Below are positions 27,761-63,548 of a stretch of DNA of 64,000 bases, in pieces. Made by a program: the position numbers and the translations under genes. The notes under the pieces were generated by a model. It did no database searches. It saw only the letters and a list, made by a program, of their open reading frames with translations, and was not told the DNA's origin. The stretch's first letter is position 1; each line of letters starts with the position of its first letter. Source of the stretch: Medicago truncatula (Eukaryota; Streptophyta; Magnoliopsida; Fabales; Fabaceae); NCBI RefSeq assembly GCF_003473485.1, contig NC_053046.1, forward strand, positions 9,806,001 through 9,870,000, written 5' to 3'.

Positions 27761-28418
27761 CGATAATGTAGAATCAACTGAATTTAGGTTTATTTTTATT
27801 CTTACAAAATAAATATAAAATAAAAAGGAAAATAAGGTAAAATAAATAAAAAATAAAAAAATAAAAAATAAAATAATTTGGATGAGGTGGCACTCACCAA
27901 GATTAAGGAGTTATAGAATTACTAAATTGCCCCTTCTAGGGGCAAAATTGTAAATTTATATAGCATCAATTTTAATAAATAGTTAGTAGACAAAAGAGTA
28001 CTCTTTATTTTTAAATTTTTTAAAAGGAAAGGAGTACTTTTAATTATATTTTTAAAATAAAAAAAATGCAATTACCATCACATTCACGCGTATAAGAATG
28101 CCGTACCCAGAAAAAGAGAATGCCATCACACTAGAAAAAAGACAAAGCTACCCCTCCACATAACACTTGTTTAGTTTGAGGATTTGTTTCAAACAATAAG
28201 CAGAAAAGGGTAATTTGGGGATTTCACTTTTCACCATTCTTCTCATTGTTGTGTAAGTTGTCCAAAACAAAACATGCTACTGCTGTACTACATTCTTTGT
28301 GCCAACAACGTTGTATTGTCTGTATCCTTCACAAAGTAACCATTTTTCTTATAAAATATCTCATTCATCCTTGTTTCTCAGTAAAGGTTGAAGCTTTTTC
28401 AAGAACAGAGTGATATCC
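27761..28418. other. Intergenic, PMD gene 5' flank
   Basis: Very AT-rich tract (A/AAT-rich near 27800-27880), then the presumed promoter and leader of the PMD gene. No other feature recognised. Confidence 0.4.
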
Positions 28419-30536
28419 ATGATGAATGAGCAACCATTGATGGAGGTGAGGGAAGATTTCATGATCTCACCAACTGGTCACAGTGAAGCAACTCTTAGAA
28501 TGGCTCATTTTCTAAAACCCATTTCAAATTCCATTCATGAACCATCACCTTTTGGTTTTAACCCATCATCATTGTCTTATGTGTTTGATCCAAATGAGTG
28601 GCCTTTGAAATTCCATTTCAATGGATGGCGTTACCCACAAGAGAAATGGATTTATTGGGTTGATCAACTTAAACCAAAGTATGAATCTTTGTGGAAGAAA
28701 GTAGGTATCTTTGATGCTATAATGAGTACCAAGTGCCGCATAATGAAAGATCAAAACTTGCTATATGGGGTTGTTGAGAAATGGTGTTGTAAGACGAATA
28801 CATTTGTGTTTCCGTTTGGTGAGGCGACGATTAGTTTGGAGGATGTTATGGTTTTGGGGGGTTATCCTGTCATCGGTGATCCTATTTTCATAGATGTTAA
28901 AGGCCGGGAAATGAGAGAGGTGGAAGAGAAGTTGATTCTTGCTAGACAGAAACTTGGGGAGAGTAACAGGTGTCACGCTACCGCGTCAAAATGGATGGAT
29001 TTTTTCATCGACAAAGGTAGTGAAATTGAGCATGAAGCGTTCATTGCTACGTGGTTGTCAATCTTTGTTTTAACTCATAAATCTTTGGTGAAAAGTTCTT
29101 TGTTTTCTATTGCTATTCATCTTGCTAGAGGAAATTCTATTGCTTTGGCACCAGCTGTTTTAGCTAGTATTTATAACGATTTAAGTTTGTTTAAGAAAAC
29201 AATAGTTAATTTGTCAAAATTATCTGTTGGTGGTGATAGATATCCTTTAGAAGTTACTCTTCAATCACCCTTTTACTTGGTTCAAATTTGGGTGTGGGAG
29301 AGGTTCCAAAATTTACAGCCAGAACCCATGTTGATCAATCACGGAGACCCTTTATTGTTTAGGTGACATAAGGTTCAGGCCTTGAAAATTGACAATGTTA
29401 AGCTGGCATTAGACTCGGCTATGGATGATTTTCTTTGGCGTCCATATTTTAGATATGCTGATAACTGCGGTGTGTTTTATCCAAATGATGCGCTTTTGGT
29501 ACCATTTAAGAAAGATTTGGATAAGCTAATGCTCTCATTTGTTATATGCTTGAGAGTTTCCGAGCTTGTTGGATTCGACTCTATAGAGCAGTATTTGCCA
29601 CATAGAGTTGCTATGCAATTTGAAATGGATCAAGATGTTCCAACTTATGTGCCTAGATTCAATGAGACTAAACTCATGGCTTGGAAAAACTATTGTAGGC
29701 TTATATCTGATCAAAATTTGTATTTTCCACCAAGACTTTTTGAGGCAGATGTTACCACACGATATACAATGTGGTGGAAGCAATCGGTATTGGGTCATGT
29801 CGATTTTGTTCAGAACATTGTGAAGCGGAAGAGAAGTCAAAGTTCAAGGAAGTACAGATCTCATGTAGGAAAAATTGACAGAAGTTGTAATGATGTTGGT
29901 TTTCCACCTGAATTTCCTCCCAATCTTGTTGACCTTCTTAATGTTGGAAAGCTTTGTGTTGATGTTCCTGCTGAAAGTTCTGCTGATGATTGTATGATAG
30001 CTGATGAACATATTCATGCTCCTTCCATGTCTATTGAGGATTGTAAGCCTGTGTTAAAATCTAAGTATTTAATCAACCAATGTTCTCCATCCTCTTTAGA
30101 AGATTTTGAACTTTCAATAGGGAGTTTGGAGGAAGATTCTGAAGATGCAAATCGAAGCAAAGAAGCAAGGATTTATGGTGACAGAGTCTGTTTATCTGAG
30201 ACTCAAGGTGAAAGCAAACACTTTTCTATGAGGAAAAAAGTCTCTTCATTCAACAATGTAACTGTCGTGGAGCAAGATCTTCAGTTTCGCTCTGATATTT
30301 CTGCTCACGCAGAAGCTGAAGAAGTGGTTGAAGAAAAAGGAAGAAAAGAAAGTGATCATGATGTTCTGGTTTGGTTAAAAGAGCAACACTTGAAGGATCA
30401 AAAGGAACTTAGGCGTTTGGCAAGACAACAAGAAGAGATGTTTCAGTTAATAGATTTGAAGGAGAAGAGGGATGAAGAGTTGAGGCATCTTCTCACTAGT
30501 TTTCTCAAGAATCAACAACCACCATCGTCTTCTTAA
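28419..30536 (+). pseudogene. Plant mobile domain (PMD) protein gene with one in-frame stop
   Basis: Intronless frame of 705 codons from the ATG at 28419, broken only by TGA at 29364-29366 (codon 316). Residues about 75-440 match the plant mobile domain (aminotransferase-like) of the At1g50750/At1g50790 type: FNGWRYPQEKW, FVFPFGEATISLEDVMVLGG, and past the stop LKIDNVKLALDSAMDDFLWRPY. The TGA sits where the family has a tryptophan (ARWHKV-like context), so a TGG to TGA change is the simple explanation. The tail has an acidic region and a C-terminal coiled coil (LKDQKELRRLARQQEEMFQL). PMD proteins of the MAIN/MAIL group act in transposon silencing and meristem maintenance; some PMDs are transposon-borne. 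Without readthrough only 315 residues are made. No terminal repeats were seen around it. Confidence 0.85.
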
Positions 30537-33323: not shown

Positions 33324-34610
33324 TCAAGCAATGCAAGGCCATTTAGGTGTTTTCAGTGCTTTGAGACACATGGTACTATTCTGAAATTCTAAAAAAGTAT
33401 GATCAATAAACTGACACTTATCTTTACTGGCCATCCTGGCAAAACCAAATGATCTTGTCCAAGTGTTCATAGCATCCTCTGAGGAATGCAGAAGTAATTT
33501 CTCAACTCCTAAGCGAGTTAACTGTTTCTCAATCTCATCCATCAACAAATGACACATTCCTTGTCGTCGATATTGTTCCTTGGTGGCCACGAAAACTACC
33601 TCTGCAACCTTTTGACCATAAATCCTTACAGTTGCCACTGAAATCACTTCACCCATTTTCTCCAAAATTACATTATAGAAACCACAAAAGTTTAAGCGAT
33701 TGTGTTCTGATTCTCTGCTAAAAACAACATCTTTAATCAACTCTCTTCCTGATAAAGCATCAAAAGTTGGATTAAAACCCTCATACAATACACCAAGAGC
33801 CATATTCAACTTACTCTCCTTTTGATTAAACTCCTTGTCATCAACACTACTCACATTCTTCACCAATGTCCATGTTAAATTATCTGCAACCTTAATTGGT
33901 TTTCCTAACAACTTCTTTAGACATAAGAACATGTTCCCACAAACCACACTGCAAAACCAATTCTCCATGTGATTAAATTCAATTCCTACAGCCTTTACAC
34001 ATCCAAAGTGATATTTTTGCTCACATTGAACACAAACAAGAATATTGTTATCCTTGTGATCTTTACATTCTTGTTTGCATTTGGGTCGATAGCATATTTT
34101 GCAACAACAAGTTGGACAGAACCATTCACCAATTGGAACTCGATTGAGACCTAAACAACCTAGGTGGAATGCAGAAGGGCATCGATCACATAGTGCTAAG
34201 TCACCTCCAAAACCACAAATAGAACAAACATTATCATTATTTGCTTCAGATTTTTCTTTGACAACACAATGATTCTTCTTTCGATTTTCTTTGACAATAG
34301 AATGATTCTTCTTTTGATTTTCGTTGACAACAGAATGATTCCCTTTATGATCACTCGAACTCAGAGCTTCCCTTTGACAATCCAACAACGATCTTCCATC
34401 TTCCAACAAGATACTAGTGGATGGTCTATGTCTTGTACAACCAGCATGAGACTCGAACCCGGTGATAGTAAAGGTAACATGACAACAATCACAAACTATA
34501 GCATCAGAAAACAAACTTCCTCTTTTGACAACTTTGTTACTGCCCTGACAGAACACATTAGTCCCTGAAACCAAAACTTGATTCTTTATCAACCAAGAAA
34601 CAATACCCAT
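33324..34610 (-). CDS. TDBD-PHD-GNAT acyltransferase-type protein (IDM1-like, short)
   Basis: Intronless, 428 residues, ATG at 34610. Residues about 8-75 form the Tify-binding-like cysteine domain (VFCQGSNKVVKRGSLFSDAIVCDCC... region). A PHD finger follows near 127-170 (CSICGFGGDLALCDRCPSAF, GEWFCPTC), then a second Cys-rich zinc-binding block (CVQCEQKYHFGC, NWFCSVVC). A GNAT fold lies near 290-410 with the acetyl-CoA loop EQYRRQGMCHLLMDEIE. This is the domain order of plant INCREASED DNA METHYLATION 1-type histone acetyltransferases, but the protein is far shorter than IDM1. The likely role is nuclear chromatin binding and acetylation; substrate unknown. Between TDBD and PHD an 11-residue unit (NHSVVNENQKK) is repeated three times, encoded by a 33 bp tandem repeat at 34255-34355. 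Confidence 0.88.
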   Translation of the reverse strand: MGIVSWLIKNQVLVSGTNVFCQGSNKVVKRGSLFSDAIVCDCCHVTFTITGFESHAGCTRHRPSTSILLEDGRSLLDCQREALSSSDHKGNHSVVNENQKKNHSIVKENRKKNHCVVKEKSEANNDNVCSICGFGGDLALCDRCPSAFHLGCLGLNRVPIGEWFCPTCCCKICYRPKCKQECKDHKDNNILVCVQCEQKYHFGCVKAVGIEFNHMENWFCSVVCGNMFLCLKKLLGKPIKVADNLTWTLVKNVSSVDDKEFNQKESKLNMALGVLYEGFNPTFDALSGRELIKDVVFSRESEHNRLNFCGFYNVILEKMGEVISVATVRIYGQKVAEVVFVATKEQYRRQGMCHLLMDEIEKQLTRLGVEKLLLHSSEDAMNTWTRSFGFARMASKDKCQFIDHTFLEFQNSTMCLKALKTPKWPCIA

Positions 34611-35346
34611 CGTTTAACACTTTTTCTCTACGAAACGTAACTTTTTTGAGTTTGCAGAAATATATTTTATAAGGAGAAGTATGATTCAAAACTTTTGTTC
34701 TCTGCTCTCTCTATATATAGGGCTAAATAGAAATCATATTTTTAAATCATGTCTTTTAATATGGAACAAATCTTCTTAAAACAAAATAACGAACAAATCT
34801 TTAAGAGATTCTAAACATAAATATAAATTTATAATATTATAAAGATATTTTAGCATGTTACTTATTCTAACATTTATTCCACACCCTTCGAATTCTTCTC
34901 GGTTATATTACTTATCTCTAATACCTTTGACGTTGATGCCGTAATGACATTAGTTTTTTGTTTTTGTTTTGATGGAGCTGGAATTAGAGGCGTGAGAGAA
35001 TCCTCAACGGAAATTAGAATTCAGACTTAAATATTTATTCTTTTTCTTAAATATTTAATGTTTTTATTCCAAAAAGATCTTTGATTGATATTTTTTTTTT
35101 ATCAAAAAATGCAACACTTATCGATTAAGGATGTTATTGTGAAAACATGGTTTATTATTTTTTTATTTTTTATTTTTATAAAAATATAGTCTGTTGCTAT
35201 TTAAAATTAACAAATATCTATAAATAATTAAATATAATTTTAACCAAATTCAATATTTATAAAAAATAAATAAATAATAATATACGTGTGTTATCACAAT
35301 AAATAATACTAACATTCGTACCCTTGCATTAATAAAGGATAGTATT
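34611..35346. other. Promoter side of the PHD-GNAT gene and spacer
   Basis: On the minus strand a TATA box (CCTATATATAGAGAG) lies near 34712-34726, about 100 bp upstream of the PHD-GNAT ATG. The remainder up to the hAT element is AT-rich with no other feature. Confidence 0.5.
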
Positions 35347-36994
35347 TAGGGGTGCCAATATGATCCATGAGATCCATATCCATCCACTATAAAATCCATC
35401 CAATCCATCCATCAAACAAAATAATTTGTTAATGGATTGGATTTGATTCATCCACATTATTTTAAAAATTCAATGGATCACCTCTTTAAATTAAAAAAAG
35501 TCCAATGGATATCTTCAAAAAATATTAATCTTTTTTATTTAAATAATTATATTTTTGATTATCACCTTATTTTTTTTAGCTAAACTATTTAAATAAAAAA
35601 GCTTATTTATGCAAAACAGCTTATTAATATCTCATTTTCAAAAACAACTTATTTATGCAAAACAACTTATTACGATCTCATTTTCAAAACAACTTATTTA
35701 TGAAAAATAGCTTATTATGATCTCATTTTCAAAAACAGTTTAATCATGTAAAACAACTTATTTATGCAAAATAGCTTAGTATGATCTCAATTTCAAAAAC
35801 AACTTATTCGAAACAACTTATTTATGCAAAACAGCATATCAATATCTCATTTTCAAAAACAACTTATTTATGCAAAACAGCTTATTTCGATCTCATTTTC
35901 AAAAATAGCTTATTCAAAACAACTTAATTATGCAAAACAACTTATTATGGTCTCATTTTCAAAAACAGCTTATTCAAAACAACTTATTTATGCAAAACAA
36001 CTTATTATGATCTCATTTTCAAAAACAGCTTATTCAAAACAGTTGTTTTTGAAAATGAGATCATAATAAGCTATTTTGCATAAATAAGCTGTTTTGAATA
36101 AGCTGTTTCTGAAAATGAGATCGAAATAAGCTGTTTTGCATAAATAAGTTGTTTTGAATAAGCTGTTTTTGAAAATGAGATCATAATAAGCTGTTTTGCA
36201 TAATTAAGCTGTTTTGAATAAGCTGTTTTTGAAAATGAGATCATAATAAGCTATTTTGCATAAATAAGCTGTTTTGAATAAGCTGTTTCTGAAAATGAGA
36301 TCGAAATAATCTGTTTTGCATAAATAAGCTGTTTTGAATAAGTTGTTTTTGAAAATGAGATCATAATAAGCTGTTTTGCATAATTAAGCTGTTTTGAATA
36401 AGCTGTTTTTGAAAATGAGATCATAATAAGCTATTTTGCATAAATAAGCTGTTTTGAATAAGCTGTTTCTGAAAATGAGATTGAAATAATCTGTTTTGCA
36501 TAAATAAGCTGTTTTGAATAAGTTGTTTTTGAAAATGAGATCTGAATAAGTTGTTTTGCTTAAATGAGTTGTTTTGAATAAGCTGTTTTTGAAAATGAGA
36601 TCATAATAAGTTGTTTTGCATAAATAAGTTGTTTTGCATAAATAAGCTGTTTTTCAAAAGAGATCCTAATAAGTTGTTTTGCATAAATAAGCTGTTTTTT
36701 TAAAAAGAGATTGTAATAAGTTTTTTTGATAATACACCTATATAAAAAAAATAATTCACCTATAAAAAAAAAAAAAAACTTTAAAAAAAATTATACACTT
36801 TGATTTATGGATCGGATGGATTATCCATCCATTAAAAGCTAATAATGGATGGATTGGATGTACTTTATTCTAATTGGATGGACTTGATGGTTTTTTTTTA
36901 AGAAAAAAGAATAGTGGATTGTAATGGACTAATTGACCTTTTTTGATCCATCCATTAGGATCCAAATCCATATCCATCCATTTTGCCACCCCTA
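35347..36994. mobile_element. Non-autonomous hAT element with inverted repeat-array core
   Basis: The ends are TAGGGGTGCCAA at 35347 and the complementary TTGCCACCCCTA at 36983-36994, differing at one position. They are flanked by the perfect 8 bp direct repeat ATAGTATT (35339-35346 and 36995-37002). Subterminal zones on both sides are rich in CCATCCAT/ATGGATGG (35360-35460, 36810-36980), like transposase binding repeats. There is no transposase. The core 35578-36722 is a large inverted array of 60 bp units. Length 1648 bp. Confidence 0.9.
35578..36722. repeat. Inverted array of about 20 units of 60 bp
   Basis: The left arm (35578-36037) has about 8 copies in one orientation (ATGCAAAACAGCTTATT...GATCTCATTTTCAAAA), more diverged and of variable length. 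The right arm (36038-36722) has about 12 copies of the reverse complement, most exactly 60 bp long. In the right arm three unit types recur in fixed order with a 180 bp period (36061, 36241 and 36421 start matching triplets). Each unit also contains AATAAGCTGTTTT-like sub-repeats about 20 bp apart. Transcribed through, it would fold into a long hairpin. The open frames over it reflect repetition, not coding. Confidence 0.93.
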
Positions 36995-37595
36995 ATAGTA
37001 TTACGTTAAATTGTGTAATCACTTTTTTGTAGGGGGGTTTGCTTTCACTTTGTTACTTACGGCGCTTTCGAAAAGATAAAAAATTTATTTGTCTTTTTAA
37101 TCTTTTTCTCAATTAAAGTGGTAGCATTTTATAAGGTTCTTCGAGGAAATTTGAACCCTACATTATAGTTATAATGTTAATTCCAGACTACTAAGCTTTA
37201 CTAAGCTAGCACCTCAAACGTGAAAGAGATAAATTTTCAAACATATATAAATTCACAAAATATAAAAATATTTATTTTCGATAGATTGAAAAAAAATAAT
37301 AGCTATTGCAAGGTTGATTGTCTTGCCTCCACATGATCCGAACATATGTTTATAAGTAAGACAATCATCACCACAAAAGCTACTTGTAAGGTGAAAACTG
37401 TATCTACTAATAAATACATGTTCAAACCATATTTTATCCGATGTAGGACTCTTTATCGTGTAAAGTATGACTCATAGTTGCATTAAAGGTATTTTTAAAG
37501 TATGACAATAAGCTTTATGGAGTACTATCCATTAATCTCTTCGGTGGTAAATTATCATTTAAATGTATTTTTCTAAATTAAAATAAAAAACAACA
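36995..37595. other. Spacer with a decayed SINE
   Basis: Between the hAT element and RLK locus A. It contains the SINE-like segment at 37100-37222. The rest is AT-rich with no LRR coding sequence, so the upstream part of RLK locus A is missing. Confidence 0.45.
37100..37222 (-). mobile_element. SINE-like tRNA-derived fragment
   Basis: In minus orientation GGTGCTAGCTTAGTAAAGC (A-box-like) is followed 60 bp later by GGGTTCAAATTTCC (B-box-like). The spacing suits a tRNA-derived SINE head. No clear tail or target duplication, so this is an old or partial copy. Confidence 0.45.

Positions 37596-55268: not shown

Positions 55269-55311
<43 letters not shown>
55269..55311. repeat. Poly-C tract, 43 bases
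   Basis: An uninterrupted run of C on the plus strand in otherwise AT-rich DNA, directly after the right end of the degenerate transposon. It may be real or an assembly or cloning artefact, since homopolymer lengths are often wrong. Confidence 0.8.
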
Positions 55312-58970: not shown

Positions 58971-61900
58971 TTACACTTTAGGATTTTCATCTTTCTGTTT
59001 TTCTTCGTGATGCAATATCCTCCCACAAGTTGGAGGTGAGTAAATATTAATCATTCCCAACTTGGATAATAGCAAATTGAAAGGCTGAGGCAATAGAGGC
59101 TTAGTGAAAAAATCTGCTAGCTGTTCCTTTGATGAAACCGGAAGAAGTTTCATCACTTTGGCTTGTAACTTTTCTCTAACAATATGACAATCTATTTCTA
59201 AGTGTTTTGTGCGTTCATGGAACACAGGGTTAGCTGCTATATGAAGAGCGCTTTGATTGTCACAGTATATAACTGGTAGTTTGTCACAAACAATCTTTAG
59301 GTCTTGCATCAAGTATAATAACCACTGAAGTTCACATGTTGCTGCTGCAAGGGCTCTATATTCAGCCTCTGATGATGACCTAGAAACAGTTAACTGTTTC
59401 TTAGTTCTCCATGAGATCATGGATTTTCCAAGGAAGAAACACTGGCCAGAAACAGATCTCCTTGAGTCTATACATCCTGCCCAATCTGCATCAGAAAAAC
59501 CTAAGAGTTGCATGTGAGAGTCTCTAGGAAAGAATAAGCCTTTTCCTGGACAACTTTTGAGGTATCTTAAGACTCTTGTGGCTGTTGAATAGTGAGCATG
59601 TGTAGGTTTGGTGAGAAACTGACTGAGTTGTTGGATAATGAAAGTAATATCTGGTCTAGTTGTATTCAAGTACAATAATCTTCCTATCAGTCTTCTGTAT
59701 GATGCAATATCCTCATATTGTGGACTGTTATCTTGATGAAGTTTAGAAGAAGGGTCAGAGGGTGTTGAGACAGGTTTAGATTCCAATAAGCCTGAATCAG
59801 TGATCAAGTCCAAACAATATTTTCTTTGACAAATAGAAATACCAGACTGTGAGTGTGCAATCTCTAAACCAAGAAAATATTTCAGCTGACCTAAATCTTT
59901 AATTTGGAATGAGTCATGTAGAATTTGCTTTATTGATTGAAATTCTGATAAGGAGTTGCCAGCTAAAATCACATCATCAACATAAACTAAGAGTGCAGTA
60001 AATGTTGAGGTTGATTGTTTGGTAAATAGAGAGTGATCGGATGAAGCTTGAATGTATCCATGAAGAAGCAATAGAGAGGTCAGTTTCTCATACCATTGTC
60101 TGCTAGCTTGTTTGAGTCCATAGAGTGACTTAACAAGTTTACAAACTTGATTAGGTTTGGTAGAAGTGATGCCAGGAGGGAGCATCATATAAACATCCTC
60201 CTTTAAATCTCCATGCAGAAAGGCATTATTTACATCTAATTGATGTAGATGCCAATTATTGATGGAAGCTAGAGCCAAAATTAATCTGATTGTGGTTAGT
60301 TTAGCTACAGGTGAATAGGTATCAAAATAATCCAAGCCTTCAATTTGGTTATAACCCTTTGCAACTAATCTAGCTTTGAATCTTTCAATAGATCCATCTG
60401 CATGGTGTTTGATTTTATATACCCACCTACAACCAATAGGAGTGACTGTTGGTGGTAAATCAACAACTTTCCATGTACCAGTCTTCTCAAGAGCATTTAG
60501 TTCAGCTTGCATGGCTTGAGTCCAACAATCATATTTACTTGCTTCAGCATAGGTTTTGGGCTCAATTTGTGTGGAAATAGTCAAAGCAAAACGACAATGA
60601 GGGTTAGATAAATGTGTAAAAGACAAATAATTGGAAATAGGATAAAGACTAGAATGAGAAGACTGAAGACAGTTAGTAACAGAAGGACAAATGAAATCCT
60701 GCAAATATGTAGGAGATTGTTTATTTCTGGAAGATTTTCTAGGTGGTATATGTTCAGGTGCATGTGTAGATGTGGAAATAGAAATATCTGGAGTAGTGTT
60801 GGATGGTGGGGAAGTATTAGGAGTAGAAACAGATAAAGGTGTAGCAGAGGATGCATTAGATGATGCATCAGGAGATTCAAAATATTCCCAATCTGAGGTA
60901 ATGGACATAGAGGAGCTTTTGTAGGGTAAAATATGTTCATGAAAAGATACATTTCTAGATAGAAAAATTTCTCTTGAAGTTAAATCATATAGAATGAAAC
61001 CTTTGACACCAGACTTGTATCCTAAGAAAACAGACTTTCTAGCTTTAGGGTCAAGTTTGGTTCTATGAGATTGAATAGTGGAGGCATAACATAATGAACC
61101 AAAAACTTTGAACACTGAGATATCAGGAGTTGTGTTATATAGTAATTGATATGGGGATTTATTCTGAAGTAAGGGAGTTGTTACTCTATTTATGAGAAAA
61201 GTAGCATGACAAACAGCATAAGACCAAAAACACTTAGGTAATTTTGACTGATAAAGTAAAGCTCTGCCAACATTTAAAATGTGTTGGTGCTTTCTCTCTA
61301 CCCTACCATTTTGTTCAGGGGTTTCAACACAAGACAAATGGTGCAAAATACCTTTGGAAGCATAAAAGGAATGAAGTAAAAACTCTGGACCATTATCAGT
61401 TCTCACAACTTTAGGTGTTATATGAAATTGATTTTCAATCATATTGATAAAATTTTGAACATGTTGAGATACTTCAGACTTAGCTTTGAGTAGAATGATC
61501 CAAACATATCTACTGAAATCATCTACAATAGTAAGAAAATACTTGTGACCATGAACAGAAGAAATGGAAAGGGGGCCCCAAATATCAAAATGAAGAAGCT
61601 CAAACTTAGAAGTAGCATGAGATAAACTGATATTAAAAGGCAATTTTCTCTGTTTGGCAAAATGACAAATGTCACAAACTGATTTATTATCACATGAAAT
61701 AGAAGGATACAAGCTTGTCATATGATACAATCTATTATTTGACAAGTGACCTAATCTAAAATGCCATAAGGCTGACATAGGAATGTAGGTTTCAGATGCT
61801 ACATCATTACAAGAATTTGAGAAAATGCTAGAAGATGAAACTGAATTAACAAAGGAATGAGCTGGATCTTGTACTTTTAGTCTGTAAAGTCCATTCACCA

Positions 61901-63335
61901 GTTCACCCAAACCAATCATCTGAGGACATTTCATGGCCTGAATCATACAAGTAGAATTAGAGAACTTAACATAACAGGAAAGGGATTCACATAGTTTTGA
62001 GACAGATATGACATTGATTTGAAACATTGGTGAATATAGAACATGAGAGATGTATAAAGTGGGAGAAAATGTGACATTACCAGCATATTCAACCATAACA
62101 ATATGACCATTAGGTAAACTAACTCTGGTGGGTTTGATCTTATAAAATGAACTAAAATAATGCATAGAAGAACAAATATGGTCATTTGCTCCAGAATCAA
62201 TGATCCATACATTAGACAAAGAAGGTAAAAGAGAAGCCACAGAATATATACCTGAAACAGTGTTAATGGTAGTAGAAGTTTCTGCAGTAGGCTGAAGAGA
62301 AGTTGAGGTGTTTGGTGAAGATGCAGAAGGAAGTAAATTTGACTGTTGAAGCAAGAAAACAAGCTGAGATAACTGCTCTTGATTCAAACTAGAAGGAGGC
62401 ACCACTGCATTTCCACCATGAGCAACCTCAGAACTCTCACCAAGAGAAGCATTTACAGATGAACTTTGCTTATTAAAACTTGGATGCCCATGCTTTTGAT
62501 AACAAAACTCAACAGTGTGATTTGTTCTGTTACAAAAAGTGCATAATCTGGAAGAATTCTTGTTGGAATAAGAATTCTTGCCACGGCCAAAGGATTTGCG
62601 TGATTCAGAAGCATTAATGAGTACATTAGAATCATCCTGAACAGGTAAAATAGAGTTGTTGCTTTCTTCTTGCACAACCAAAGAATATACCTTGTTCAAA
62701 GGGGGAAGAGGATCCATAAGAAGCACTTGGCTCTTAACAACAGAGAAAGAATCATTTAAACCTTGAAGGAATTGAATAACCTGGTCCTCAACACGTTGAT
62801 TCCTAGCAGCACGCATAGCTTCACATCTACACTGAGGAATACAAGAACACATAGGAATAGGTCGGTGGGAGTTCAATTCTTCCCAAAGAGATTTCAATTC
62901 AGTGAAATACTCAAGAACACCTTTAGAACCTTGTTTGAGTGAATGAATTGCTGCAATTCTGATACGATCTGCCTTAGAGAATCGTTCCTTCAAGTCCTCC
63001 CATACATCAAAAACGTACTCATGAAAAACCAAAGTTTGAGCAATTGGTTCAGAAACAGAGTTGATAATCCAAGAATGAATAAGGTGGTTACATCGTTCCC
63101 ATGAGTTTCGGTTTAAATCAAGCAGATCCGGAACTGGTAAAGATCCATCAATGAAGGGAAGTTTGTTCTTCGCACCCAAAGCACGTCTCATAGAGCGACT
63201 CCATGCAAGATAATTGGTGCCGTTGAGCGGCGGAGTGACAAGAACCGAATTAGGACCTTCACTTGCATGAACAAAATAGACTGAATCCTGATTAGCTTGT
63301 TGAATCTGAACAATAGGAGCAACACGAGGAGGCAT
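58971..63335 (-). CDS. Copia Gag-Pol polyprotein, intact
   Basis: 1454 residues from the ATG at 63335 with no stop or frameshift; the frame upstream to 63368 begins with TTG. Gag with zinc knuckle CTFCNRTNHTVEFC; protease WIIDSGANDHIC; integrase zinc domain (HFRLGH, CDICHFAKQ) and DDE core (FDIWGP, RTDNGPEF, PEQNGRVERKH); reverse transcriptase with LDVNNAFLHGDLKEDVYM and YVDD; RNase H with SDADWAGC, SSSEAEYRAL and YCDNQSALHIA. The order PR-INT-RT-RH is that of Ty1/copia. The last 15 codons and stop lie in the 3' LTR. The protein would supply all enzymes for retrotransposition from a cytoplasmic particle. Confidence 0.97.
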   Translation of the reverse strand: MPPRVAPIVQIQQANQDSVYFVHASEGPNSVLVTPPLNGTNYLAWSRSMRRALGAKNKLPFIDGSLPVPDLLDLNRNSWERCNHLIHSWIINSVSEPIAQTLVFHEYVFDVWEDLKERFSKADRIRIAAIHSLKQGSKGVLEYFTELKSLWEELNSHRPIPMCSCIPQCRCEAMRAARNQRVEDQVIQFLQGLNDSFSVVKSQVLLMDPLPPLNKVYSLVVQEESNNSILPVQDDSNVLINASESRKSFGRGKNSYSNKNSSRLCTFCNRTNHTVEFCYQKHGHPSFNKQSSSVNASLGESSEVAHGGNAVVPPSSLNQEQLSQLVFLLQQSNLLPSASSPNTSTSLQPTAETSTTINTVSGIYSVASLLPSLSNVWIIDSGANDHICSSMHYFSSFYKIKPTRVSLPNGHIVMVEYAGNVTFSPTLYISHVLYSPMFQINVISVSKLCESLSCYVKFSNSTCMIQAMKCPQMIGLGELVNGLYRLKVQDPAHSFVNSVSSSSIFSNSCNDVASETYIPMSALWHFRLGHLSNNRLYHMTSLYPSISCDNKSVCDICHFAKQRKLPFNISLSHATSKFELLHFDIWGPLSISSVHGHKYFLTIVDDFSRYVWIILLKAKSEVSQHVQNFINMIENQFHITPKVVRTDNGPEFLLHSFYASKGILHHLSCVETPEQNGRVERKHQHILNVGRALLYQSKLPKCFWSYAVCHATFLINRVTTPLLQNKSPYQLLYNTTPDISVFKVFGSLCYASTIQSHRTKLDPKARKSVFLGYKSGVKGFILYDLTSREIFLSRNVSFHEHILPYKSSSMSITSDWEYFESPDASSNASSATPLSVSTPNTSPPSNTTPDISISTSTHAPEHIPPRKSSRNKQSPTYLQDFICPSVTNCLQSSHSSLYPISNYLSFTHLSNPHCRFALTISTQIEPKTYAEASKYDCWTQAMQAELNALEKTGTWKVVDLPPTVTPIGCRWVYKIKHHADGSIERFKARLVAKGYNQIEGLDYFDTYSPVAKLTTIRLILALASINNWHLHQLDVNNAFLHGDLKEDVYMMLPPGITSTKPNQVCKLVKSLYGLKQASRQWYEKLTSLLLLHGYIQASSDHSLFTKQSTSTFTALLVYVDDVILAGNSLSEFQSIKQILHDSFQIKDLGQLKYFLGLEIAHSQSGISICQRKYCLDLITDSGLLESKPVSTPSDPSSKLHQDNSPQYEDIASYRRLIGRLLYLNTTRPDITFIIQQLSQFLTKPTHAHYSTATRVLRYLKSCPGKGLFFPRDSHMQLLGFSDADWAGCIDSRRSVSGQCFFLGKSMISWRTKKQLTVSRSSSEAEYRALAAATCELQWLLYLMQDLKIVCDKLPVIYCDNQSALHIAANPVFHERTKHLEIDCHIVREKLQAKVMKLLPVSSKEQLADFFTKPLLPQPFNLLLSKLGMINIYSPPTCGRILHHEEKQKDENPKV

Positions 63336-63548
63336 TGTGATGTAGAAGAAAAATGAAAGATCACGCAAAGAAGAAGAAGATATATGAAGAGCTGAAAGAA
63401 TCAGAGAAAAGCGCGAAGAAAAGGATGAAAAATGAAGAAGAAATGAAGAAAAATTGAAGCTTGAAGCTCAAGCATCAATGGCGGAAAATGTGTAACTGAA
63501 TCGTAACTGATTCTCTCTCTAAGAGAGAGAAAAATAAAACTGATACCA
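63336..63548 (-). other. Copia leader with primer-binding site
   Basis: Purine-rich untranslated leader (in minus orientation) between the 5' LTR and the polyprotein ATG. TGGTATCAG at its 5' edge is complementary to the 3' end of initiator methionine tRNA. Confidence 0.85.

Follow-up and report, generated by a model that had tools for sequence, protein, structure and literature searches.

A multi-copy non-coding hAT transposon of Medicago truncatula with a back-to-back repeat array that also occurs in a Harbinger-like family

Introduction

The superfamilies of DNA transposons are commonly regarded as closed lineages with only their host in common, and their short non-autonomous derivatives, the MITEs, are usually below about 800 bp in length. 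Foldback elements have mostly been placed in the Mutator superfamily, with exceptions such as Galileo, which is placed in P, and one foldback element, Tetris, has also seeded satellite arrays, according to the available part of a published account (PMC4079207). In addition, one type of array has been described across different Helitron elements (PMC12628747, in the portion available). Here we describe an element with an inverted array of short repeats, located in a stretch of 64,000 nucleotides of the Medicago truncatula genome (NC_053046.1, positions 9,806,001 to 9,870,000; this whole stretch is referred to as the window), together with its relatives elsewhere in the genome. In the open-licence literature searched, we found no report of this hAT family or of an array common to hAT and Harbinger transposons.

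Ends and surroundings of the window element

The element spans positions 35347-36994 of the window (1,648 bp) and, by direct reading, lies within an 8-bp duplication, ATAGTATT, whose left copy (35339-35346) and right copy (36995-37002) match at 8/8 positions. Its inverted ends are of the TAGGGGTG type. A pattern search located the left terminal inverted repeat (TIR), TAGGGGTGCCAA, at 35347-35358 on the forward strand, and the right one, TAGGGGTGGCAA, at 36983-36994 on the reverse strand, each with 0 mismatches. When up to two mismatches were allowed, the TIR pattern gave 10 matches in the window compared with 10.7 expected by chance; the only zero-mismatch matches were the two element ends. 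The hAT ends and 8-bp duplication that had been read from the sequence in the original prediction were therefore borne out. Unique subterminal regions with repeated ATCCATCC motifs form the two sides of the element: an array-free left region (LT; 35347-35594, forward strand, approximately 248 bp) and a right region that closes with the TIR (RT; 36733-36994, forward strand, approximately 262 bp). The element does not appear to be self-contained, as had been proposed, since no open reading frame of at least 150 aa is present inside it and its movement would require a relative that carries a transposase.

An open reading frame of 428 aa at 33324-34610 (reverse strand), which starts 736 bp from the element and is not part of it, encodes an IDM1-like PHD-finger/acetyltransferase protein (Pfam IDM1_C, 3.4e-48, with TDBD, PHD and Acetyltransf_1), and is possibly a chromatin-regulator neighbour. 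The Plant mobile domain (PF10536) is often linked to transposons, and two adjacent open reading frames at 28410-30536 (forward strand) jointly cover most of this domain. Elsewhere in the window, positions 55269-55311 are a pure run of 43 C, which is odd for an AT-rich window and a possible assembly oddity, and an uninterrupted frame of 1,465 codons at 58971-63368 (reverse strand) resembles, by eye, a copia-type retrotransposon polyprotein.

Anatomy and folding of the array

In the motif map, eight sites that point one way are followed by 12 that point the other, with the turn centred near 36037; this count and position are identical to the earlier estimate of about eight units on the left and 12 on the right. 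The left arm (35595-36036), delineated from the motif map and repeat detection, has spacings of 46/45/64/60/46/60/60 bp. The right arm (36037-36732), for which TRF reports 10.9 copies of 60 bp, is mostly spaced at 60 bp (9 of 11 intervals in the motif map, the last two being 63 and 47 bp). The earlier description of both arms as the same 60-bp repeat therefore fits the right arm well and the left arm only loosely, since intervals of 45/46 bp occur there alongside ones of 60/64 bp. Measured between the innermost sites of the two arms, both sites included, the turn is 54 bp long (36010-36063), as defined in a comparison of turns from 17 hAT and 25 Harbinger-like loci. The arms abut at this turn, a foldback-type middle domain being absent, and they stop approximately 248 and 262 bp short of the element ends, with unique sequence between.

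The longest perfect inverted match in the array is 63 bp. When 901 bases spanning the turn were folded computationally as RNA, the energy was -466 kcal/mol, compared with -163 ± 7 kcal/mol for 20 shuffles (z = -41), in agreement with the predicted capacity to fold. A 35-base unit pattern had 405 matches genome-wide (at most one mismatch), compared with 0 in a reversed control. Chance or artefact was rejected as an explanation on the basis of the fold statistics, the copies elsewhere in the genome and this unit pattern with its reversed control. Several Rfam models (MIR1435, MIR6140 and others) matched the array below their gathering scores, and these matches were put down to long AT-rich hairpins. 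The viral contigs contained no exact copy of a 31-base unit pattern.

Copies of the hAT family

The genome searched comprised 430 Mb in 42 contigs. A whole-element search returned 432 first-look candidates, of which the best 40 were scored; 39 places were fetched and, with the window, made up 40 loci, to which loci matching the termini and some others were later added. Searches with LT and RT returned 90 and 114 first-look candidates, respectively, and identity was 71 to 96% among the best 40 scored for each end, the query itself excluded. Counting as copies those with both hAT ends and a duplication matching at 7/8 or 8/8 positions, we identified at least 15: the window element, L009-L016, L018-L020, L048, L052 and L067. 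The duplication is 8/8 in 11 of these and 7/8 in the other four (L011, L015, L018 and L067). Loci L013 and L014, which are about 31 kb apart, have a common duplication and flanks that are 99.9-100% identical for 1 kb or more to either side; they are one duplicated insertion, so that the 15 copies represent 14 insertions. All but L052, which has a single arm, contain two opposed arms (14/15), and sizes in the family range from 1.23 to 3.07 kb. When LT of the window element was aligned with that of 13 other non-coding copies, identity was 93-97% in 12 of the 13 and 81% with L020 (gap columns excluded).

Left out of this count, for having one end, broken ends or no duplication, were L017, L021, L037, L038, L049-L051, L053-L055, L057-L061 and L068. 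Among them, L049 is an 864-bp locus that has both hAT ends and lacks both the array and a matching duplication. L056 was counted only jointly with its continuation, L062, as a transposase-bearing copy (see below).

Across the first 40 loci, the orientation map revealed a run of sites in one orientation and then an opposite run in 38, with L037 and L038 being single-armed. Some arms are short or interrupted: L027 consists of two elements, L036, L039 and L045 have one odd match each, and L046 has one arm with few sites. At the outer edge of the hAT left arm a spacing of 46-45-64/65 is kept in most copies, and the right-arm edge ends with 45-46/47 or 63-47/48 in many; the middles of the arrays are variable. 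The turn junctions are likewise of several kinds, with 11 of 17 hAT copies sharing one motif, L015, L018, L021 and L051 another, and L016 and the window element each having its own.

Together, these data identify the window element as a real multi-copy non-coding hAT transposon with a back-to-back repeat core. Recovery of 14 other copies with such ends (13 further insertions) removes the objection, foreseen at the outset, that no further copies would exist. The proposed mobility is supported by the presence of such ends and of their own 8-bp duplications in the further copies, and so is the proposal that the array travels with the element.

A transposase-bearing relative

Joined, L056 and L062 form a copy of 4,239 bp, with GCATGCAG on both sides (an 8/8 duplication) and TIRs at both ends. 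The window TIR TAGGGGTGNCAA also terminates this copy on both sides, with one mismatch at one of its ends. On its reverse strand, an open stretch of 261 codons matches the Pfam domains Dimer_Tnp_hAT (PF05699, 2.3e-32) and hAT-like_RNase-H (PF14372, 1.8e-26), and no open stretch of at least 70 codons was found on that strand over the region expected for the N-terminus. The copy carries approximately 510 bp of array as a single arm beside RT; this arm is downstream of the transposase frame, about 1 kb beyond the scanned part.

Internal sequence next to the arm is common to L056, L057, L058 and L060, whose flanks differ. RT of the window element is 94-95% identical to RT of four transposase-type copies (gap columns excluded), and the outermost two or three array units are alike in non-coding and transposase-type hAT copies. 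At its left end, the 4,239-bp copy matches LT of the window element at only about 71% of positions (gap columns excluded), and the two are therefore not a simple deletion series. None of the copies examined combined two arms with a transposase. These sequences favour a reading of the window copy as a non-autonomous hAT of foldback-like build that would be moved in trans by the transposase of a relative.

A second, Harbinger-like family carries the array

Of the 40 loci, 24 lack hAT ends, and their flanks form a single second family. It has two distinct ends, of approximately 205 and 223 bp, both of which begin with the TIR GGCTTTGTTTGCGAGTT. With L064 added, the family numbers 25 loci, among which 19 have both ends and six lack one. 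A matching 3-bp duplication (TTA/TAA) was found in 15 of the 19 copies with both ends, the remainder being L026, L027, L029 and L044; the mismatch at L027 likely reflects two elements and the wrong pairing of ends. PIF/Harbinger transposons are recognized by a 3-bp TWA target-site duplication, and the second family is PIF/Harbinger-like by its duplication and style of terminus, as measured against such general criteria.

Searches with the two ends returned 160 and 186 first-look candidates, of which the best 40 were scored each time. The 39 other best-scored ends in each search were 94-98% identical to the query, a range that is biased upward by scoring only the best. Even so biased, these identities fit a family that would be larger and younger than the hAT family. 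There are 153 matches to PF13359 in the genome; between the 150 listed and 75 of the 80 listed second-family ends (the five on contig C15 being excluded), the shortest distance is 10.3 kb, and no Harbinger transposase was found beside second-family ends among the matches and ends listed.

Contig C15 (258 kb) has at least six A-ends of the second family within its first 16.6 kb. In L063 (C15:1-10000), an A-end and array are repeated head to tail every 3.2-3.3 kb with 95-98% identity. The C15 tandem is a Harbinger-like transposon turned satellite.

Comparison of the arrays of the two families

The unit consensus sequences of the hAT and second families are identical at 44 of 47 positions, compared with 29 of 47 for the best of 2,000 shuffles. 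Mean identity between pairs of units, computed over 471 hAT, 32 transposase-copy and 793 second-family units, was 0.846 within the hAT family, 0.825 within the second family and 0.802 between the two; units of the two families show frequency differences and no fixed difference at any position. Identity between families is close to that within them and favours no particular direction or date of transfer. In both families the arms have the same polarity with respect to the element ends.

Among the 17 hAT and 25 Harbinger-like loci compared, none of the turns is common in full to the two families. The central 14-mer of the window turn, AAAACAGTTGTTTT, recurs only in L065 among the compared loci, and the 10-mer junction of the hAT copies L015, L018, L021 and L051 also occurs in L034, on the Harbinger-like side. 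Such short junction motifs may represent either convergence or a trace of common origin. As no complete turn is common, the inverted form may have arisen twice, rather than by transfer of an intact palindrome. These comparisons suggest that the repeat module has moved between transposons of different kinds.

The first 100 of the 405 unit matches, all of them exact and located on contigs C1 to part of C6, fall in 27 loci, of which 25 have a hAT end, one (L065) has a Harbinger-like end and one (L066) has neither. At L066 (C6:14078600-14081800), positions 964-1767 form an inverted array of the shared unit that lacks hAT and Harbinger-like ends alike; next to it is a gene-like stretch that resembles, by eye, a glycosyltransferase. 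Derivation of the unit from a gene was considered and rejected: 26 of these 27 loci have transposon ends, and the remaining one, L066, adjoins the gene-like stretch.

A microRNA annotation at the hAT end

The Rfam model for the MIR5291 precursor (RF03353) matches within LT, at 35388-35452 on the reverse strand, with 98.4 bits (gathering score, 54). The same model matched 13 of 17 other hAT-side stretches, among which L056 and L062 belong to a single copy and L062 lies just above the threshold, and none of the three Harbinger-like loci scanned. This distribution suggests that the MIR5291 microRNA annotation corresponds to a transposon end or to transposon-derived sequence. Separately, a match to the Rfam MIR5284 precursor (108.6 bits) is present at 413-523 of L033, approximately 0.6 kb outside the Harbinger-like copy.

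Discussion

We consider it probable that the window element belongs to a non-autonomous, foldback-like hAT family in which unique ends of approximately 248 and 262 bp surround a palindromic 46/60-bp array, and which is moved by cut and paste with the transposase of a relative. The hAT transposase of a similarly ended relative would act in trans on the window element. The palindrome would have arisen when an element lost its transposase coding sequence and gained a second arm in the opposite orientation, and its turn would be remade now and then through central deletion. Ordinary slippage and recombination among the repeats would lengthen and shorten the arms, and the centre of the palindrome would be lost repeatedly. 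Exchange of the array with the Harbinger-like family would be explained most simply by template switching into a repeat array while the gap left by an excision was being mended. Transcripts of the array, should they exist, would form long double-stranded RNA and could yield small RNAs resembling both families. The 21-24 nt small RNAs and the cruciform extrusion of the original prediction may likewise occur.

A stronger version of this last step, in which the element would be kept, or would matter, through palindrome transcripts processed to small RNAs with a trans-silencing effect on its hAT and Harbinger-like relatives, much as has been proposed for Mu killer and MuDR in maize, is possible but on balance doubtful. 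The fold energy far below that of the shuffles, the position of the array arm downstream of the transposase frame in the hAT relative, and the MIR5291 match at the hAT end, which implies that small RNAs have been catalogued from such sequence, all favour it, and Mu killer is a published precedent (PMC3440606, available part). However, a study of alfalfa counted just 0-3 reads of miR5291-3p in each library (PMC6311939, available part), and this microRNA derives from the element end rather than from the array; moreover, Mu killer shares coding sequence with its target, whereas only non-coding arms are common here. The step by which read-through would produce the hairpin is also at odds with the accessible portion of the Mu killer report, where silencing was tied to internal antisense transcripts and read-through was seen where silencing had failed (PMC3440606). 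It is distinctly improbable, in our judgment, that the inverted array is an independent module that colonizes hAT and Harbinger-like transposons with the same polarity, has become a satellite at least once (on C15), and through its hairpin RNA would couple the silencing of unrelated transposons.

Alternatively, each family could have captured the array independently, from a satellite existing free in the genome. The array at L066 without either set of ends, the C15 tandem of the Harbinger-like unit and the lack of a complete turn common to the families are consistent with such captures; we nevertheless regard them as unlikely, given that hAT ends accompany 25 of the 27 loci among the listed unit matches and Harbinger-like ends one (L065), that no long free satellite of the hAT-type unit occurs among those matches, and that the two families agree in the polarity of the array with respect to their ends. 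The constant polarity with respect to element ends in 38 of the 40 loci, with the other two single-armed, could instead suggest that the repeats are putative subterminal binding sites for transposase, multiplied because more sites aid transposition, and the presence of one arm in the transposase copy points the same way. Multiple binding sites have been reported for the long ends of Galileo (PMC3688188, available part). Nevertheless, the array occurs in two families with different ends and duplication lengths, and presumably different transposases, and the repeated hAT subterminal motif is ATCCATCC rather than the array unit, so that this function appears quite improbable. Palindromic tandem arrays are difficult to assemble, which might raise the suspicion of an assembly artefact or of a local satellite expansion. 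This we consider extremely improbable, because 14 other copies (13 further insertions) have 7/8 or 8/8 duplications and related arrays, and the spacing patterns at the arm edges are conserved.

The preferred reading, a non-autonomous hAT family that would have exchanged its array with a Harbinger-like one, bears on how closed transposon lineages are. A palindromic module in a hAT family (at least 14 two-armed copies with both ends) and in a Harbinger-like family (both ends present in 19 of 25 loci) suggests that non-coding cores can cross superfamilies. The pair of families allows one to ask how such cores cross, for example by template-switching gap repair or by satellite capture, and whether small RNAs act across families.

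Among known systems, plant non-autonomous hAT elements and hAT MITEs resemble the family described here in their 8-bp duplication, short TIR, repeated subterminal motif and related transposase copy. They differ in that the present elements are 1.2-3.1 kb long, with an array, palindromic as a rule, replacing the short core; both the window element, at 1,648 bp, and the family as a whole, at 1.23-3.07 kb, lie above the size commonly used to define MITEs. The second family resembles PIF/Harbinger (Tourist-like) elements in its TTA/TAA 3-bp duplication and its TIR, GGCTTTGTTTGCGAGTT, and is unlike them in carrying the hAT family's kind of array. Mu killer of maize is similar in being an inverted derivative of a transposon with a proposed long hairpin RNA (PMC3440606, available part). 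It is, however, a single locus with inverted transposase gene sequence, whereas we describe a mobile multi-copy family with non-coding arms. As with the satellite-like arrays of Helitrons and MITEs, transposons here have spread tandem arrays (PMC12628747, available part), but in this case the array is inverted and resides in two cut-and-paste families with unrelated ends. Foldback elements such as Drosophila FB, Galileo and Tetris are also non-coding, with inverted arms of tandem repeats, variable unit number and target-site duplications (PMC4079207, available part). Judged by its features, the window element belongs with the hAT transposons rather than with the classic foldbacks: its arms stop short of the element ends, inside unique ends of approximately 250 bp, without a separate middle domain, and the same arms also occur in a second family with unrelated ends.
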